From the NCBI GenBank assembly GCA_949282305.1, contig CASDPB010000039.1, positions 1-64,000 on the forward strand: DNA of 64,000 nt. The letters run 5' to 3'. The notes below the pieces were generated by a model. It made no database searches. It was not told the origin of the DNA and worked only from the letters and a program-made list of their open reading frames with translations. This DNA comes from an uncultured Lentisphaeria bacterium. GTDB lineage: Bacteria > Verrucomicrobiota > Lentisphaeria > Victivallales > UBA1829. This document shows, piece after piece, positions 20,138-35,962 of this stretch (the stretch's first letter is position 1; the number at the start of each line of letters is the position of its first letter). Made by a program: the position numbers and the translations under genes.

Positions 20138-20947
20138 CTACCAGTTGACCTTGTCCCCGCGGGTCCACATATTGCCTGACGTGTTTGCCCCTTTTGCTAC
20201 ATTGCGGTGAAGATAGTTCATCCCGCGGAGCCCTTCGCATGGCGCCTTGAGACTGGAGACGTTTCCCGCGGCGAAAAGAGTGTTGCACGAACCACCGTGG
20301 CGCGGAGAAAGATAGCCCAGCCCATTTTCAGAAGTGGATACGGAAGAGTAAAAAATCAGATTCGCTCTGACGCCGTCGATGGATGCCGTGGCGGTGTCGT
20401 AAGACTGTATGTCCGCGTTCAGTATTTTCCGGGACGGACTTTTGATAGACTGCACTTTTGCCGGTTCATTCGTTCCGCCGCCGCTGTATCTTGCGCGATT
20501 GCTTCCGATGAAATAATGGTTGTAGCCGTATTCCGGATTGTCTGCGGCGTAAGAGGTGAAATCCCGTGTGTCGGCGGAATTCATGGAACGCAGGGACTCG
20601 CGCCATATTCGGTTTGAATTCTTCTTCAGTCCGTGATTTCTCCCCGGGCAAATCAGAATGTTGCCGGTGGTGTAACCGCAGCGGATCATTCTGCGGACCC
20701 AGTTGTCATTTCTTCCCCCGAATTGCATCCCGAACGATGCAGCAGGCACGAAATAATCCTGGAAGTCATTGGTATAGCTCATCATGCCGATGCCGAGCTG
20801 TTTCAGGTTTGAGACGCAGGCGGCGGTATAAGCCCGTTTTCGCGCCTGATTCAATGCCGGAAGAAGAAGGGAGGCTAAAATGGCGATGATCGCTATGACG
20901 ATAAGTAATTCTATTAAGGTGAATATTTTTGTCTGTCTGTTCCTCAT
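20138..20947 (-). CDS. Prepilin-like (pseudopilin) protein, cassette B
   Basis: This 269-residue protein starts at ATG 20947 behind a strong GGAGG. It begins [20 protein letters not shown], with isoleucine instead of glycine at the predicted -1 position and Glu at +5. The helix continues into [18 protein letters not shown]. The C-terminal part contains [21 protein letters not shown], where the DG of the family signature has become AG. A conserved middle ([29 protein letters not shown]) resembles DUF1559-type proteins. Its start overlaps the stop of the GntR/LacI regulator in ATGA, so the two are translated together. It precedes the LamG/DUF4091 protein gene. Confidence 0.87.
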
Positions 20948-22041
20948 AATGCCTCCAACATGTTGTTTGAATGATATTGACTGCAGGATGTGGATTCCCG
21001 CTCTATAATCCGGTAGGGGGTTGCCAGAAGGGAATGTTCCGGGGATTCCGGCCAGGACGGCGACGTCAGCAGACGGACAGCCATCCGCCCGATGTCCGCA
21101 TATCCCAGGTCAACGGTGGAGAGCGGAGGGTCCAGCAGGGTGTCGCCGGGGTAGCCGCAGTATCCCATGACCGCGAGCTCTTCCGGAATCCGGATTTTTT
21201 TCTCCTGAAGATATTTCATTGCCTCCATCGCGTAAAAATCGGAATAGCAGTAAACCGCAGTCTGTGCATCGCATTCGGGAAGCATTTCATCCATTGCCCC
21301 GCGAATGGAATCCCGGCTCAGATCCGCTTCATAGACAAGGCGCCCGGTGTCCTTCAATCCTAAATCCCGGAATAATTCGCGGTTTTCCGCCGGAGTCCAG
21401 CCACGGTTTCTGCCTCTCATCATCAACAGCTTTACATTCCGGTACCCTTTCTGCGCCAGATATTCCAAACCGTCCTTCCATGCCCGGCGGGTATCGGAAT
21501 ACAGCACGGGGAAACCGGCAATTTTGTCTCTTTCATCGCCGTGGACAACGATAACCGGAAGATTCAGCTGTTTCAGGATGCCCAGTTCCGGTTCATTTCC
21601 GTTCAGGTTCGAGACTACCAGAAGGGCGCCGCACAGATTTTTGCCCCGGAGAATTCTGAGCGCCTTTTCCGGTTCCAGCTCCCGCAGATATTCGACGAAG
21701 CACTGTTCCGTCCGGTATCCCATTTCAGATGCTTCCGCACTGATTCCGGGGATGATATAGTTATGCGGCAGTTCCACGGTGTTTTTCCTGATGATTCCGA
21801 TCAGGATCAGATTCGGTTTCCGATCTCCCCGGACGAAAGTCCCTTTGCGCGGCAGACGAACAATCAGCTGTTCCGTTTCGAGGCGTTCCAGTGCAGAGCG
21901 CAGCGTGACTTTTGCAACTCCCAGCATCCGGCTGAATTCCAATTCCCGGGGAAGCCGCGACCCCGGAGCGTATTTCCCCGAGATGATTCCCTGCTTCAGC
22001 TCTCCGTAGAGTTTGTCTTTTTTGAATATGCCGGATTCCAT
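20944..22041 (-). CDS. GntR-type regulator with LacI-like sensor domain (cassette B)
   Basis: This 365-residue protein has a GntR winged helix at residues about 8-72 ([59 protein letters not shown]). A LacI-like ligand-binding domain follows ([76 protein letters not shown]). It heads the minus-strand operon of pseudopilin, LamG/DUF4091 protein, nagA and methyltransferase. A TTGACA/TATAAT promoter and paired GATACTAT repeats precede it. It is probably a repressor of its own operon, induced by a sugar from the glycan handled by this cassette. Confidence 0.9.
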
Positions 22042-24012: not shown

Positions 24013-24065
24013 TAAAAAAAGATGGACATATACTGTACATAGTGAGCTTTTACATACGGGGGAAC

Positions 24066-25208
24066 ATGAAGCGCGACCAGATATTCCATGAACTGAAACG
24101 GCGGATTGCGGCAGGAGAATATGCGGTGGGGGAGAAGCTGCCCACGGAATTTGAACTGTCCGCACAGTATGCCGTCGCCCGCGGCACAATCCGGCAGTCT
24201 TTGAAGCTGCTGGAGGCGGAAGGTTATCTGGAACGTGTCAAATCCAAAGGGACTTTCATCCGTCAGCCTGCACAGAAGCCCGGCGCGGACAAGGTGATTT
24301 CTTTTCTGATGCCGTATCCCGGGTATATCCGCCCGAGCGATGATCCGGTGTTTATCACTTTTTCCCGGATTTTTTACGGTGCGATCCGTGCCGCCTCGGA
24401 AGCCGGGTGGCGTGTTGAGGCCGTTCCCTTTTCCAGAACCAACGACAACTTCAACATCGACTGGGATGCGCTGGAGCACATCGGGAAAGATTCCAGAGTC
24501 ATGATATTCAACCACTGGTACCATCCGGCGTTCGATGCGTTTCTGAAACGCGGGGCGAGAGTCGGGATCATCCGCTATTTCAGCCATGTGAAGAGTCCGT
24601 GGGATCATTGCTTTGAAAATTGGATCGATGCCGTGATCGACACGAAAAAAGTTGCTTCGGATGCAGTTTATTTTCTTCATTCGCTGGGATGCCGGAAAAT
24701 TCTGAATGCCGGCTGGTATTATCAGGATGCGTACAACGAGAAACCCATCGGCTATCGTGAAGCCGTGGACCGCCTCGGTCTGGAACGGCTTGAACTGGAT
24801 TACGACACTTTAAGCGGAAAAACGGGTTATGGGAGAGATGTTGCGGAGACGATTCGGAAGATCTGGGAGGAAACGCATTTCGACGCCATGTTTGCGGACA
24901 ACCCGCAGCATTATTTTACGGAGAAGGGAAATATTTATCGTGCCATAGGAATTCCGGAGAGCGTGAAGATTCTCCTGAACCATGACGAGCCGCAGCATTA
25001 TTTACGGACTTCCCCGCAGGTCAGTGCGTTTTCCATTGACATGGACAAGGTGGGGTATACCGTTGCCAAGTGCCTCGTGGAAGACAGCGCCGCTCCCCGC
25101 CAGCTTGTTTTTGAACGGACACTCTGCAACAGGGAATCCACCGGAGGAGCTTATGTTCCGCCATGCGATACAACGGAGGAGGAGAAAACATGGATGGCTA
25201 TGGTATAA
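24066..25208 (+). CDS. GntR-type regulator with LacI-like sensor domain (cassette C)
   Basis: This 380-residue protein starts at ATG 24066, five bases after GGGGGAA. A GTG at 24042 is in frame but lacks a ribosome binding site. Residues 1-70 are a GntR winged helix ([59 protein letters not shown]). The remaining 300 residues form a periplasmic-binding-like sensor ([44 protein letters not shown]). It is followed closely by a pseudopilin and the DUF4838 protein, repeating the order of cassettes A and B. It is probably a ligand-responsive repressor of this operon; the ligand is unknown. Confidence 0.88.
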
Positions 25209-29764: not shown

Positions 29765-29782
29765 ATTTCAAGTACTTGAAAT
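29765..29782. promoter_or_regulatory. LacI-type operator, perfect 18-bp palindrome (cassette D)
   Basis: ATTTCAAGTACTTGAAAT at 29765-29782 is a perfect 18-base palindrome that covers the -35 box of the next promoter. The size and central symmetry match LacI-family operators. A LacI-family gene begins 58 bases downstream, so autoregulation is likely. Confidence 0.75.
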
Positions 29783-29803
29783 TTTTTCTGTTTTGATTAT
29801 AAT
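29776..29803 (+). promoter_or_regulatory. Sigma-70 promoter of cassette D
   Basis: TTGAAA (29776-29781) and TATAAT (29798-29803) are 16 bases apart, and the -35 box lies inside the palindromic operator. The regulator start codon is at 29840. Confidence 0.75.
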
Positions 29804-29839
29804 GTAAAGAGAGAGAAATATTTTGAGAGAGACGACACC

Positions 29840-30838
29840 ATGATTTCACTGAAGGAAATAGGAAGAATCTGCGGGATTTCGGAGTCGACCGTATCCAAGG
29901 CGCTCAAGGGGAATCCCGCCATCCGCCGTTCCACGGCGCAGCGGGTGGCGGAAGTCGCGCGCAAATACGGCTACCAGCCCAATGCCATGGTTCAGTGCAT
30001 GCAGACCGGACAGAGCCGCAGCATCGGGATTGCCTACAATAATTTCCGCTGTCAGTTCGCCGGTCAGGTCATGGAGGGAATCCAGCAGGTTCTGCATGAA
30101 AATAATTACGATTCCTTTGTCATTCAATGGGATAAGCTGGTCAAGGACAAGATCGAACTTCTCGGACGGTTTGCCCGCCGCCGTGTGGACGGCATCCTGC
30201 TGTTTCCGCCGGAAGCCGCCGATCCGGGGGAACGTCTTGCGGAACTGCGGAACATCCACAGTCCCATTGTCGTGATTGATCAGCGCTGGCCGGGGCATGA
30301 CTTTGATTATGTCGGGAGCAGCAACCGGAAAGGGATGTATGAGCTTGTTTCTTTCCTGATCGGGCGGGGGTATCGAAGATTCGGCGTGATCTCCTTTCCG
30401 TCAACGAGTTCCGGCGAGGAACGCAAATCCGGTTTTCTGGATGCGATGTTTGAGCATAAGCTGCCGGTCGACGCCTCCCTGCTGGCGGTTGCCGAAGAAC
30501 CGCACCTGAGCCCTTATGAGGCTGCCCGTTCTCTTCTGGAACGCCCCGACCGTCCGGAAGTGCTGGTCTGTTTCAATGATTACATCGCCCGGGAGGCGCT
30601 CAATGCGGCGTGGGACCTGGGGATTCGCATTCCGGAGGAACTGGCTGTGACCGGGTTCGGCAATCTGCCGCTGTGCGATCTGGTTCGTCCGCGGCTTACC
30701 ACCGTGGATCAGTTTTCATTCGAGACCGGGGTTGCCGCCGCCCGTCTTATTCTTGAGCGGATTTCAAGCACTGGAAATCCGGAGCGGCGCGATATTGTGA
30801 TTGATACGAAAGTAGTCATACGTAATTCAACCCGTTAA
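29840..30838 (+). CDS. LacI-family transcriptional regulator (cassette D)
   Basis: This 332-residue protein begins with the LacI headpiece ([47 protein letters not shown]), including the recognition helix STVSKAL and the hinge. The sensor domain contains [91 protein letters not shown] and [12 protein letters not shown]. These repressors release DNA when a sugar binds. A perfect palindrome covers the promoter, and a near copy lies in its own 3' end just before the pseudopilin gene. It is the predicted controller of cassette D. The ribosome binding site is weak (GAGAGAGACG). Confidence 0.93.
30761..30778. promoter_or_regulatory. Possible auxiliary operator inside the LacI gene
   Basis: ATTTCAAGCACTGGAAAT at 30761-30778 differs at only two positions from the palindrome at 29765. 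It lies in the last 80 bases of the regulator gene, 72 bases before the pseudopilin start. Auxiliary intragenic operators are well known for lac-type repressors. Coding constraint could also explain part of the match. Confidence 0.5.
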
Positions 30839-30849
30839 GGAGTTTAACA

Positions 30850-31596
30850 ATGAAAGGAATCTTCATGATGAAGACGGCAAATCTCCGGAACAGGAGCAGT
30901 TTCACTTTGATAGAGCTCCTCGTCGTAATTGCGATTATCGCGATTCTGGCATCAATGCTGCTGCCCGCACTGAACAAGGCGCGCGAGCGGGCAAAGGCAA
31001 TGCAATGTCTCAGCAACGTCAAACAAGCTGTTCAGGGGTGTTTTCTTTATGCGGATGACTACAAGGGAATGCTGATGCGGCCCCACATTGAAAATTCCAG
31101 GCCGACTTACTGGGCAACTCTGCTGATGGACGGCAAATACATCTCTTCCGGAAAGACGTTTTTCTGTCCCGACCAGAAAAATAAAAACACATGGGCTGAT
31201 TCCAATGCCCGGTATACTTACGGCTTGAACCGCAATCTGGCACGGGACAACCGGGACAATGCCGCCGGTTATTATGTCAATATCTATGCACTGGACAAAT
31301 TGCGGGAAAACGGCAAACAGACACTTGCGCCATCCATCACCTGGCTGGTCGGAGACAGCATCATGCGGAGCACCGCAGGGGCGGACAATCTGACGAGCTG
31401 CGCCATTCTCAGCTGGAACAACGGTGCGGAGGGACTCCCTTCTCTGCGGCACAGCCGGCAGGCGAACATGGGATTTCTTGATGGCAGTGCAAGAGCCACC
31501 GGAGCGGACAAGATGCACAGGATTCATCCGCAGATTGAGGAATGGGCATACAATGACTCGCAAATCATCAGGCAGCTTCCGGGAACTTCTCTTTAA
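30850..31596 (+). CDS. Prepilin-like (pseudopilin) protein, cassette D
   Basis: This 248-residue protein starts at ATG 30850, eight bases after AAGGAG. It has a long basic leader ([17 protein letters not shown]), then [17 protein letters not shown] with serine at the predicted -1 position instead of glycine. An ATG at 30865 would give a shorter leader. [23 protein letters not shown] follows. The globular part has [12 protein letters not shown] and [11 protein letters not shown], and ends with [16 protein letters not shown], an exact H-x9-DG signature. It starts 11 bases after the LacI stop and is followed 44 bases later by the CBM-GH protein. The same order occurs in cassettes A, B and C. Confidence 0.88.
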
Positions 31597-31640: not shown

Positions 31641-34600
31641 ATGATGAATAAAACAGTTTTCTCCATTCTTGCAATGTCCGCCGGCATTGCGCTCCACGGC
31701 GCTCCCGCTTTTACCAATCCGTCGTTTGAACAGGGAACGGGAGGCTATTGGATTAACAATTCCTCCGCCGCAAGAATTGATCCGGGCGATTCGACGGACG
31801 GCAGACAGAGCCTCGGAATCAAAGTGGTTCCCGGCAAAACGGTCAGCGTCGTTCAGGGACTCGCCTACGAAGCGAATCAGTATTACAAAATCAGCTTTGA
31901 CGCCAAAGGCAGTGACGCCGTACTGCGGCTTCAGGTCATGCTTCAGGGAAAGAAGCCGCTCCAGTTCTTCAATGATCCGGAACTCAAGAAGGCAATCCGG
32001 CTCACGGAGGAATACAAACGCGTGACTCTGGAACTTGGCCCGTTCCCGGAGGCGGTCAACGGCAATGAAGTCAAAAAACTGATGATTTACTTCAATGTCA
32101 CCGGCGACAAGGAAGGCGGCAAAGTCAATCTTGACAATCTTTCCGTTGAACTGAAAGCGGCCGCCAGGACTTCGGCAAAGTCCATTCTGAAGAACGGTTC
32201 CTTTGAACAGGGGCTGGCACAGTACTGGGTCAACCGCCGCAAATGTGCGGAAGTTGATTCCACGGCGGCAAGTCATGGACGCAGAAGTTTAAAGGTGACT
32301 CCGGAAGATAAGACCGTCGATCTGGCGCAGGGCGTTCCGATGAAGCCGGGGGAGATTTACTCCATCCGTTTCGATGCAAAAAGTTCCACCCCAGAAAACG
32401 GACCGGTGCTGAAACTGGGCGTGCTGATGCGCGGCAAGAAGCCTCTGGCTTATTTTTCCGCCAGAGGGGAGCAGAAAAGATTTGCCGAGGCGGTTCCGCT
32501 GGAAGGCGACTTCAAGACGTTTGAATATGAGCTTGGTCCTTTTCCCGAAGACTGGCGCGGGACGAAAATTGAAAGCCTGATGTTTTACTGGCACATCAAG
32601 CCGGGAACAAATCCCGGATCGGTTCATCTTGACAATCTTCAAATCGAAACCGCACCTGCGGCGCAAAAAAAAAATAACGGAATAGTATTTCAGTTTCCCG
32701 GCGACATCCGCATCTTTGAAAAAGGATTTCCGCTGAAAGTTTCTCATGGCGCCGGAACGGGAATCCTGAAGGTGCGCGGCGTCAACGCGCTCGGCAAGGA
32801 ACTTTTCTCCGCGGAATCGAAGCCGGGCAGACCGGAAGTCACCATTCCCGTTTCCGAACCCGATTACTATGCCGTTACCGCCGAAGTTCTTGAAAACGGC
32901 AAAGTGGTCAAGCAGGCGCAAAGCACATTTGCGGTCACTACGCCGCTTCCCGAAGATTATTACACCACATCACAGCCGGCTTTCGGCGTATGGGGCGGTC
33001 TGAATCCGGAACTCCGGCGTCTCGGCGGAGCGAAATGGGACCGCCAGCTTTTCTTCACGATTTTCCAGAAAAAGGATTTCCAGGCGGTCGAACCGAGTCC
33101 CGAAGCGATTGCCGCCCGGGAGCCGGTCAACATCATCCGCTGCATGAATATCCTGAATCCGTTCAAAAGAATGGTGCCGGTGAAGCAGGAGGAATGGCCC
33201 GAACTGGAAAAGCGGCTTGAAAAAGACATTCTTTCCCGGAAAGGGCTGGTTCAGGTATGGGAGACCCAGAACGAACCGATGGTCGGAGAGAACTTCCACG
33301 GAACCATGAACGATGTCATGGACATCATCCGTTTCGAGAGCCGGATTGTCCGCAGAATCGACCCCAAAGCCGCCATTGCGGGAATCTGCATCAACCCGAT
33401 GAACGCCAATCAGTACAATCAATACCTCGGTTACTACCGGAACCATGACATCGGCCGTCTGATTGACGGCGTGATGCTGCATCCTTATATTCCCGGAGCG
33501 CAGAACCCCGATCTTGCCGGATATGTCGAGACGCTCAACCGGCTGAACCGCGAACTTTCCGCGATTGCGGGCAAACCGGTTCCGATGTATATCAGCGAAA
33601 TCGGCTATTCCGCCAAACCCGGCGGCGAAGTGACCGAATACCAGCAGGCAGCCTATCTTGCCCGCGTGATGATCCTGAATTTTACGATTGAAAACCTCAA
33701 GGCGTGCGTCTGGCATATCGGGCTCTGGAATGAAGCGACTTCCCGGCGTGAACTGGATTTCGCGCTGATCCGCAAGCAGGAGCCGGGCAGCAAGGTCTAT
33801 CAGCCGAAGCCCTCCTTTGCCGCGTGGGCGACGGCGTCGCGCATGCTTTACAATGCAAAACTTCTGCGCGAACTCAACGTTGGCAAGACCATGCGCGTCT
33901 GGCTTTTCGAGAAAGAGGGAAAACCGATGCTGATCGCTTATTCCCTGATTCCGGAACCGGTGCGGATGCAGCTTGCCCTGCAGGCGCCGTCCGCGGAAGT
34001 GGTGGATGTCTGCGGACGCCGTTCCACCGTAAAATGCAGGGACGGCATTCTGAATCTCGAACTCGGAGAGGGACCCGTCTACATTTCCGGCGGGACGCTC
34101 GACCAGTTTGCCGCAGGGAAATTCGACGCGGTCTTTACTCCCGATGCTCTTTCCGCAGTTCCCGGAGGAACGCTCAACGTGAAGATCCGGCTGCCGGAAC
34201 ATCTCGCCGACAACGCGAAACTGCGTCTTCAGCCGTTCCGGGCGGGCAAAGGGGAACTTTCCGGCAGCGGGCGCAACTGGACGCTGAAACTCAGGATTTC
34301 ACCTGACGCACCTCTCGGCGACAGCGATCTGTTCCTGATGCTCAGCCGGAACGGTGTCAACCGTTACATCTGGCAGAAACTTCTGCATGTTCAGCCGAAA
34401 CTGGAACTTGCCGATGTAAAGCCCTGCGAGAAAGACGGACTTCCCGCATTGTCCTTCCGCCTGCGTGCCAATGACCCGGCACAGCGCCAGGCGAAAGTCG
34501 AAATTCTTGCCGAACCGGATCGCGTCATCGGCAGCGGCACCGCACGCACCGGGGCGGAGACAATTCTGCCTCTGCCGGACGCGGTCGTTTCCGCACGCCC

Positions 34601-35309
34601 GACCCGCTATTTTGCGCGGTTGACGCCGCCCGACGGGAAGTCTTTCCGCGTGACATTGGCAGGCAATCCGGTCCCGGTCGGAATTCCCTATTGCGCGAAT
34701 GCGGTGAATCTGCCTGTCAGCCAGTGGCCTGCGCGCGGCGTTTACCGACTTGAAACCGGAACATACAGTCGTCATGCGCTCAAAGGCGAGGCGGACCGCC
34801 CGACGGGCAGACTTTATCTGGCATCCGATGAGAATTACCTGTATCTGGCGTGCGATGTAAAAGACCGTGAGTTCCTGCCGGCTTCGGAAGCCGCCTCCCT
34901 CTGGAACGGAGATTCGCTTCAGATCGGGATCAGCGTGCCGCAGACGGATATGTTCCGTGCCAACAACGACGGGATTCAGGAGACCGCTTACGCAGAATTC
35001 GGGGTCGCCGCCGACAACCGTTCGTGGGTGTGGGCGAGCATGAACCTGAACCGCATGCCGCTGGCTGCGCCGATTCCGAAACTGATTTCAAAAAGCACCG
35101 TTGCGAACGGCACGCAATGTTACCGTGTTGCCATCCCGTGGGAATCGCTGAATATCCGCTACCGCGCCGGACTGACGCTCAAACTGAGTGTATTGGTCAA
35201 TGACCGCGACCGTGCGGGACGTCACTGGCTGGAGTGGTTCGGCGGAATCGCCGACGGCAAGGATCCCGGTGCTTATGGGGAAGCTGTAACACTGGAGAAA
35301 CGCAAATGA
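31641..35309 (+). CDS. Secreted glycoside hydrolase with two CBM4/9-like and one CBM9-like domain (cassette D)
   Basis: This 1222-residue protein starts at ATG 31641 or 31644 after GGAAAGGA, with a signal peptide ending near ALHGAPA. Two similar CBM_4_9-like jelly rolls follow (about 24-172, FTNPSFEQGTGGYW; and 182-338, ILKNGSFEQGLAQYW), then an Ig-like segment. The (beta/alpha)8-like catalytic region (445-790) has VWETQNEP with likely acid/base Glu545 and MYISEIGYS with likely nucleophile Glu653. The C-terminus (about 1050-1222) is CBM9-like (LYLASDENYLYLACDVKDRE, LWNGDSLQIGI). The catalytic Glu spacing equals that in the cassette A hydrolase. A retaining GH39/GH5-like enzyme is likely; substrate unknown. 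It overlaps the esterase gene in ATGA. Confidence 0.83.
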   Translation: MMNKTVFSILAMSAGIALHGAPAFTNPSFEQGTGGYWINNSSAARIDPGDSTDGRQSLGIKVVPGKTVSVVQGLAYEANQYYKISFDAKGSDAVLRLQVMLQGKKPLQFFNDPELKKAIRLTEEYKRVTLELGPFPEAVNGNEVKKLMIYFNVTGDKEGGKVNLDNLSVELKAAARTSAKSILKNGSFEQGLAQYWVNRRKCAEVDSTAASHGRRSLKVTPEDKTVDLAQGVPMKPGEIYSIRFDAKSSTPENGPVLKLGVLMRGKKPLAYFSARGEQKRFAEAVPLEGDFKTFEYELGPFPEDWRGTKIESLMFYWHIKPGTNPGSVHLDNLQIETAPAAQKKNNGIVFQFPGDIRIFEKGFPLKVSHGAGTGILKVRGVNALGKELFSAESKPGRPEVTIPVSEPDYYAVTAEVLENGKVVKQAQSTFAVTTPLPEDYYTTSQPAFGVWGGLNPELRRLGGAKWDRQLFFTIFQKKDFQAVEPSPEAIAAREPVNIIRCMNILNPFKRMVPVKQEEWPELEKRLEKDILSRKGLVQVWETQNEPMVGENFHGTMNDVMDIIRFESRIVRRIDPKAAIAGICINPMNANQYNQYLGYYRNHDIGRLIDGVMLHPYIPGAQNPDLAGYVETLNRLNRELSAIAGKPVPMYISEIGYSAKPGGEVTEYQQAAYLARVMILNFTIENLKACVWHIGLWNEATSRRELDFALIRKQEPGSKVYQPKPSFAAWATASRMLYNAKLLRELNVGKTMRVWLFEKEGKPMLIAYSLIPEPVRMQLALQAPSAEVVDVCGRRSTVKCRDGILNLELGEGPVYISGGTLDQFAAGKFDAVFTPDALSAVPGGTLNVKIRLPEHLADNAKLRLQPFRAGKGELSGSGRNWTLKLRISPDAPLGDSDLFLMLSRNGVNRYIWQKLLHVQPKLELADVKPCEKDGLPALSFRLRANDPAQRQAKVEILAEPDRVIGSGTARTGAETILPLPDAVVSARPTRYFARLTPPDGKSFRVTLAGNPVPVGIPYCANAVNLPVSQWPARGVYRLETGTYSRHALKGEADRPTGRLYLASDENYLYLACDVKDREFLPASEAASLWNGDSLQIGISVPQTDMFRANNDGIQETAYAEFGVAADNRSWVWASMNLNRMPLAAPIPKLISKSTVANGTQCYRVAIPWESLNIRYRAGLTLKLSVLVNDRDRAGRHWLEWFGGIADGKDPGAYGEAVTLEKRK

Positions 35310-35962
35310 TGCAGACAAACGAACTGTTTACCGTTCAGGATCGAGAGGAGATTTATGCGTTTTTCCGGACTCGCGACCGCTGGCGCGATATTGTCCGCTG
35401 GCGGACGCTTGAACACGGCCCGGTGGATACGGTCTTTTACGGAGATTCCATCTTCGAGCTCTGGCCGACCGCGGAGGCGTTTCCGGAGCTGTCCCATTTG
35501 AACCGCGGCATCGGCGGCGACAATATCAACGGTCTTTATTTCAGGCTTGACGAGGACATCTTCCCGAATTCTCCCAGGCAGGTGGTAATCAACATCGGAA
35601 TCAACGGGATCGAACGGGATTTCGATGATTCCGTCGCCCGTCTGAAATTCGTCGCCGGACTGATGCGCGAGCGCGGCATTCGTGTCTGGTGCAACAGCAT
35701 TGCGCCGCTGCGGGCGCCCGATGCGTGGGATCGCTTTCAGTATCAGGAGAAGATCGTGGCGTTGAATGAGGTGTGCCGTGAACTTTTTGAACGGGAGTTT
35801 GCCGGATTCTTCGACCTCCATGCGTTGCTTCGCGATTCCAGCGGGCAGCTTGCCGCCGAATATGCCCTGCCGGACGGAACACATTGGACTTTTGCCGCGT
35901 ATCAGGCGGCGTCGAAACTGCTGCGGGAGAAACTGCTGCCGGAAGGGAAGGGAAAACGATAA
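35306..35962 (+). CDS. SGNH/GDSL-type esterase, probable sugar deacylase
   Basis: This 218-residue protein starts at ATG 35306, overlapping the hydrolase stop, with GGAG eight bases upstream. The SGNH blocks are in order: TVFYGDSIFELW with the nucleophile Ser (block I), NRGIGGDNINGL (block II Gly), VVINIGINGIE (block III, Asn within GING) and DGTHWTFAAY with the Asp-x-x-His pair (block V). No signal peptide is evident, so it is probably cytoplasmic. Its placement between a secreted hydrolase and a symporter suggests removal of acetyl or other acyl groups from imported oligosaccharides. A phospholipase-like activity is a less likely alternative. Confidence 0.88.
   Translation: MMQTNELFTVQDREEIYAFFRTRDRWRDIVRWRTLEHGPVDTVFYGDSIFELWPTAEAFPELSHLNRGIGGDNINGLYFRLDEDIFPNSPRQVVINIGINGIERDFDDSVARLKFVAGLMRERGIRVWCNSIAPLRAPDAWDRFQYQEKIVALNEVCRELFEREFAGFFDLHALLRDSSGQLAAEYALPDGTHWTFAAYQAASKLLREKLLPEGKGKR

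Follow-up and report, generated by a model that had tools for sequence, protein, structure and literature searches.

In the gal operon of E. coli, the dimeric repressor GalR binds two operators, OE and OI, which are approximately 113 bp apart, one of them within a gene, and which are bridged by dimer-dimer contacts requiring HU. To our knowledge, the few known examples of intragenic auxiliary operators come from E. coli. In the lac operon, the auxiliary operators O2 and O3 are located in lacZ and at the lacI-lacZ boundary, respectively. LacI limits its own synthesis by acting as a roadblock at O3, leading to a truncated lacI mRNA (PMC3711431). In a survey of 1303 LacI-family factors, less than 1% of the sites were located in coding regions, lacZ and purB being named; autoregulation was found for 72% of the factors, and among 1251 even palindromes 1173 had a CG center and 49 another central pair (PMC4052901).

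The window analyzed here, i.e. the whole stretch of 64,000 nucleotides of DNA from a Victivallales bacterium, contains an operon whose genes, all on the + strand, encode a LacI-family repressor (gene 1, 29840..30838), a pilin-like protein or pseudopilin (gene 2, 30850..31596; PF07963, N_methyl), and a large secreted-type hydrolase with carbohydrate-binding domains (gene 3, 31641..35309; PF02018, CBM_4_9). The hydrolase displays the NEP and SE motifs of a GH39-like barrel, over which a weak profile match to PDB 5jvk was obtained (E 4e-6). The genes, including the pseudopilin gene, are arranged in this order in nearly all homologous loci, the exceptions being G124, in which the pilin-like ORF was not recognized, and G132b, in which the contig ends. 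The hydrolase was found in every homologous locus whose contig extends far enough. No pertinent literature was found on LacI-pseudopilin cassettes from the Lentisphaerae or the Victivallales.

A perfect 18-bp palindrome, ATTTCAAGTACTTGAAAT, is present at positions 29765-29782 (no strand assigned) and is the putative main operator, designated O1. The -35 hexamer of the lacI promoter (TTGAAA, 29776-29781) is part of the right arm of O1 and is followed by a TATAAT -10 box (29798-29803). This promoter (29776..29803, + strand) matches the consensus at 11 of 12 positions in a consensus scan and is arranged alike in homologues. Since O1 sits on the -35 box, autorepression of the operon is expected. 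The locus thus resembles the surveyed local regulons of LacI-family factors in its predicted autoregulation and in having an even palindrome 30-140 bp before the start codon, but differs from the surveyed regulons by a coding-region site and a TA center (PMC4052901).

The repressor (332 residues) combines a helix-turn-helix module (PF00356, 37.2 bits for a cut-off of 27) with a periplasmic-binding-protein-like sensor (PF13377, 100.8 bits for a cut-off of 26.5), as expected for a member of the LacI family, and its nearest solved structures are PurR and CcpA. It departs from the usual traits of the family, which are a CG-centered operator and a leucine in the hinge helix. The conserved main sites are centered on TA, and the hinge residue (position ~54) is methionine, or isoleucine or valine in some homologues, where most LacI proteins have leucine. 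These features are compatible with membership of the family because another central pair was reported for 49 of the 1251 palindromes of the survey. The best match in the PDB, 1vpw, has methionine at the same hinge position, at which PurR has leucine; we take this entry to be the L54M mutant of PurR. The locus provides a LacI-type factor that combines a TA-centered operator with a methionine hinge. The recognition helix, ESTVSK, is unique to this repressor among the 54 LacI genes compared in the genome and is unchanged in all 17 homologues described below, matching the constant core of the operator. The C-terminal heptad tail that mediates tetramerization of lac-type repressors was not found in the proteins of the genus, which are 332 residues long and end in RNSTR or RNSSR. 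Longer C-terminal tails are present in some homologues and are not conserved.

A near-copy of O1 with two mismatches, ATTTCAAGCACTGGAAAT, is located 996 bp downstream from O1 at positions 30761-30778 (no strand assigned) and is designated O2. Both sites were located to the base where the original prediction had placed them, as a perfect 18-bp palindrome covering the -35 box and a two-change copy in the 3' end of the regulator gene before the pseudopilin gene. O2 is read in the frame of the lacI ORF (29840-30838) as ATT TCA AGC ACT GGA AAT (ISSTGN), and its 3' end is 60 bp ahead of the end of this ORF and approximately 72 bp ahead of the ATG codon of the pseudopilin gene (30850). One of the two mismatches can be explained because a perfect copy in the same frame (ATT TCA AGT ACT TGA) would introduce a TGA stop codon in lacI. 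O2 is predicted to be the weaker site (profile score of 22.3 versus 32.4 for O1). O1 and O2 are the only matches with up to 3 mismatches in the window, compared to an expectation of 0.01, and the sole matches with up to 2 mismatches in the 4.36-Mb genome, which contains 3 further sites with 3 mismatches. Among 6000 resamplings of the synonymous codons of lacI, 12 generated a site with up to 2 mismatches anywhere in the gene. An RNA hairpin at O2 was considered and rejected (folding z-score of -0.76, flanking pairs not conserved, main and upstream copies of the site preceding the transcript).

Conservation of O2 was analyzed in the four genomes of the genus, most of the genomes searched in this work being multi-contig draft assemblies. 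The 18 bp are identical and located at +921 of lacI in all four genomes (86-88% protein identity to the window). Of the 327 six-codon windows of lacI, 154 are invariant at the amino acid level and a single one, O2, is invariant at the nucleotide level. The flanking codons vary, since the nearest upstream codon, CGG, is AGA in one genome and the next downstream codon changes amino acid. Four-fold degenerate sites of lacI show 45-71% agreement between the four genomes, and for six given codons the probability that none has changed is 0.0023. O2 additionally contains two low-usage codons, TCA and ACT, which account for 5-10% and 7-15% of their synonymous sets, respectively. Conservation beyond amino-acid constraint, which the original prediction had proposed as a check, is therefore observed at the DNA level.

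A search for homologues of the repressor, covering 41 relatives and the genomes of the family (36), the order (137), and the class (198), returned 17 genes including that of the window, two of them in one genome (G132a and G132b). The corresponding proteins are distinct from the many LacI paralogues, display 46-88% identity to the repressor of the window, and all belong to the order, no homologue being detected outside the order at E < 1e-50 in the class (198 genomes). Sixteen of the 17 homologues have the core TCAAGTACTTGA (with one mismatch in G124) 64-85 bp ahead of the start codon. The right arm of this core provides the -35 box, mostly TTGAAA or TTGACA, and TTGATT in four. The -10 box is TATAAT in 14 homologues. 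In 14 of the 137 genomes of the order, the combined pattern TTCAAGTACTTGA-N17..20-TATAAT has exactly one match, always at this locus, and a control with the reversed pattern gave no match. This nucleotide conservation, in the genus and beyond, supports the assignment of the palindrome over the promoter as a LacI operator, as had been proposed. In G132b (locus L059), a diverged second copy of the repressor gene, the promoter operator is absent and ATTTCAAGGAATTGGAAA is present immediately before the start codon.

The position of the second site is specific to each lineage. In a second genus (g10, comprising G024, G051, G019, and G012), a copy internal to lacI is present at +505, as TTATCAAGTACTTGATAA, or TTATCAAGTACTTGAAAG in G012. 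The core of this copy is exact, the five codons across it are invariant in the four genomes, and it includes a leucine written TTG, a codon of 2-5% usage there. Two of these four genomes have an additional upstream copy at -175. In a third clade (g13 and g46), copies are found at -128 to -199, which places them 56-124 bp ahead of the main site. In the deep branches G004, G039, and G062, no second site rose clearly above random background. The three arrangements correspond to three separate clades of the protein tree (support of 100/100, 95/95, and 92/96). Considering all loci, 31 operator-like sites were detected in 21.6 kb of lacI and promoter sequences versus a single one in 231.6 kb of flanking DNA. 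The second site scores below the main site in 12 of the 13 loci with two sites, the exception being G124. The spacings between O1 and the second site (56, 90-91, 122-124, 569-590, and 995-996 bp) have no common helical phase.

Together, the DNA-level conservation of O2 in the genus and the presence of second copies elsewhere in relatives make it very probable that O2 is a real auxiliary operator, in support of the original prediction of such a site in the regulator gene. As in E. coli lac, a main promoter operator is accompanied in the same operon by weaker near-copies, one of them in coding DNA, which are kept by selection and all presumed to bind the same repressor, the strength of the copies being predicted from profile scores. 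Unlike in E. coli lac, the repressed operon here starts with lacI, which itself holds the auxiliary site, the repressor is devoid of the tetramer tail, and the palindrome is centered on TA. An operator in a coding region downstream from the promoter is also found in the case of PurR and purB (PMC4052901), although here a main promoter operator is present too and sister lineages have the second site upstream. The pairs of the upstream clade that are 122-124 bp apart have a spacing similar to that of OE and OI in gal, in contrast to the genus of the window, in which the sites are 996 bp apart and the second one is in the regulator gene.

We infer from these comparisons that the lacI-pseudopilin-hydrolase operon is repressed by its own LacI-type protein. 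A repressor dimer bound to O1 over the -35 box would prevent initiation as long as the cognate ligand (probably a sugar) is absent. O2 would be a weaker auxiliary operator of the same repressor, and its occupancy would raise that of O1, most likely because the bound dimers touch and approximately 1 kb of DNA is looped out. Selection appears to maintain a switch with paired sites, in that it would retain a second site somewhere in the operon and leave its exact position free. The explanation that we favor, with a confidence that is only somewhat above even, is autoregulation of the operon together with an auxiliary operator under selection, which would raise occupancy probably through a dimer-dimer contact or loop. 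Looping between the two bound sites is, by itself, likewise rated as only somewhat more probable than not. Looping or dimer-dimer cooperation is considered most likely because the upstream copies of the sister clade are unable to act as roadblocks. The position-independence of the second site is in keeping with the looping that had originally been suggested, which is thus plausible, although the repressor has no lac tetramerization tail. For this reason, bridging by the 332-residue protein would need dimer-dimer contacts of the GalR type or a helper protein. The absence of a shared helical phase and the three deep homologues devoid of a second site also argue against this explanation.

The most serious rival, which we regard as unlikely but which the absence of a tetramer tail keeps in contention, is that the repressor bound to O2 halts polymerases that have escaped from O1, so that the effectors are shut off more tightly than the regulator. 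Such a roadblock would require dimers only and would generate transcripts ending in the last codons of lacI. It would fit the location of O2 in coding DNA downstream from the promoter, 60 bp before the lacI stop codon and approximately 72 bp before the pseudopilin start. It also has precedents in the truncated lacI mRNA generated at O3 by E. coli LacI (PMC3711431) and in the PurR operator in purB (PMC4052901). The pseudopilin and hydrolase genes may be gated in this manner at O2. However, a roadblock is impossible for the copies at -128 to -199 of the sister clade, which lie upstream of the promoter, and the mid-gene copy of g10 would cut the lacI message itself. As judged from the distribution of the sites, roadblocks would account for the two intragenic arrangements only. 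The varied distances and the lack of a common helical phase would suit a bound O2 that merely boosts the local concentration of the repressor or acts as a sink, without loop or roadblock. This is improbable, as a sink has no need to be in the same operon, yet 31 of the 32 operator-like sites are in lacI or its promoter.

Two further explanations have very little probability. O2 could control a separate promoter for the pseudopilin and hydrolase genes, whose separate control had also been proposed, as its location directly ahead of these genes might suggest. However, the four genomes share no suitably spaced -10 box downstream from O2, which makes independent control from a promoter of their own unlikely, the sequence following O2 diverges like ordinary coding DNA, the order of the operon is conserved, and the g10 copy is in the middle of the gene. 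Alternatively, Ser-Ser-Thr-Gly could happen to be written so, O2 being an unbound product of codon choice or amino-acid constraint. This possibility was rejected based on the codon resampling and on the codon-level conservation, O2 being the sole nucleotide-invariant window and including low-usage TCA and ACT codons, and is also at odds with the separate second sites of the two other clades.

Returning to an auxiliary operator kept by selection, the lineage-specific positions raise the possibility, for which our confidence is less than even, that this operator turns over. The pair would be kept, whereas three lineages would have gained or relocated the second site separately, two of them within the gene of the repressor that reads it, with a tail-less dimer acting over nearly 1 kb or metering its own operon at the regulator-effector boundary. 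If so, the intragenic site would dictate which codons are used and might even determine amino acids in a surface loop. The operator constrains the coding sequence of the very repressor presumed to bind it. Within one order, the second site of homologous operons occupies three kinds of position, and both intragenic positions (+921 and +505) show signs of selection in their sequence. This natural series makes it possible to test directly which of looping, roadblock, and local concentration is preserved by selection.

The site is specific to the locus. A larger regulon was considered and rejected since each genome of the genus contains the exact 14-bp operator only once. The site with 3 mismatches on contig C30 neighbors a cas2-like gene and is without counterpart in the genus. 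The genome has a very large set of LacI-domain matches (58 in 4.36 Mb), and several of its LacI genes have perfect private palindromes, such as ATGGAAAACGTTTTCCAT on contig C16. Of 29 candidates among these LacI genes, 6 had near-copies of the palindrome located upstream of them, versus a mean of 3 and a maximum of 6 in controls; an intragenic second site as a general rule for the LacI genes of this genome is therefore unsupported. The sole other intragenic case is a LacI gene on contig C36 (~154910-155150, locus L129) of the same genome (G000), which has a palindrome-like sequence, AATAAAACCGGTTTGATT, at -33 and a copy with two mismatches at +186. The latter copy could be due to chance because the gene has no counterpart in the genus.

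Additional observations concern the neighboring genes. An ORF for a GDSL-type esterase (35234-35962) is located downstream from the hydrolase gene in the window. In G124 (locus L057), a homologue of this esterase gene is divergent from lacI and an operator copy separates the two genes, which suggests that the esterase belongs to the same regulon. Fusions of a GntR helix-turn-helix to a LacI-type sensor are encoded at 24042-25208 (+) and 20944-22041 (-), beside pilin-like and carbohydrate-related genes, indicating that the neighboring cassettes use another type of regulator.
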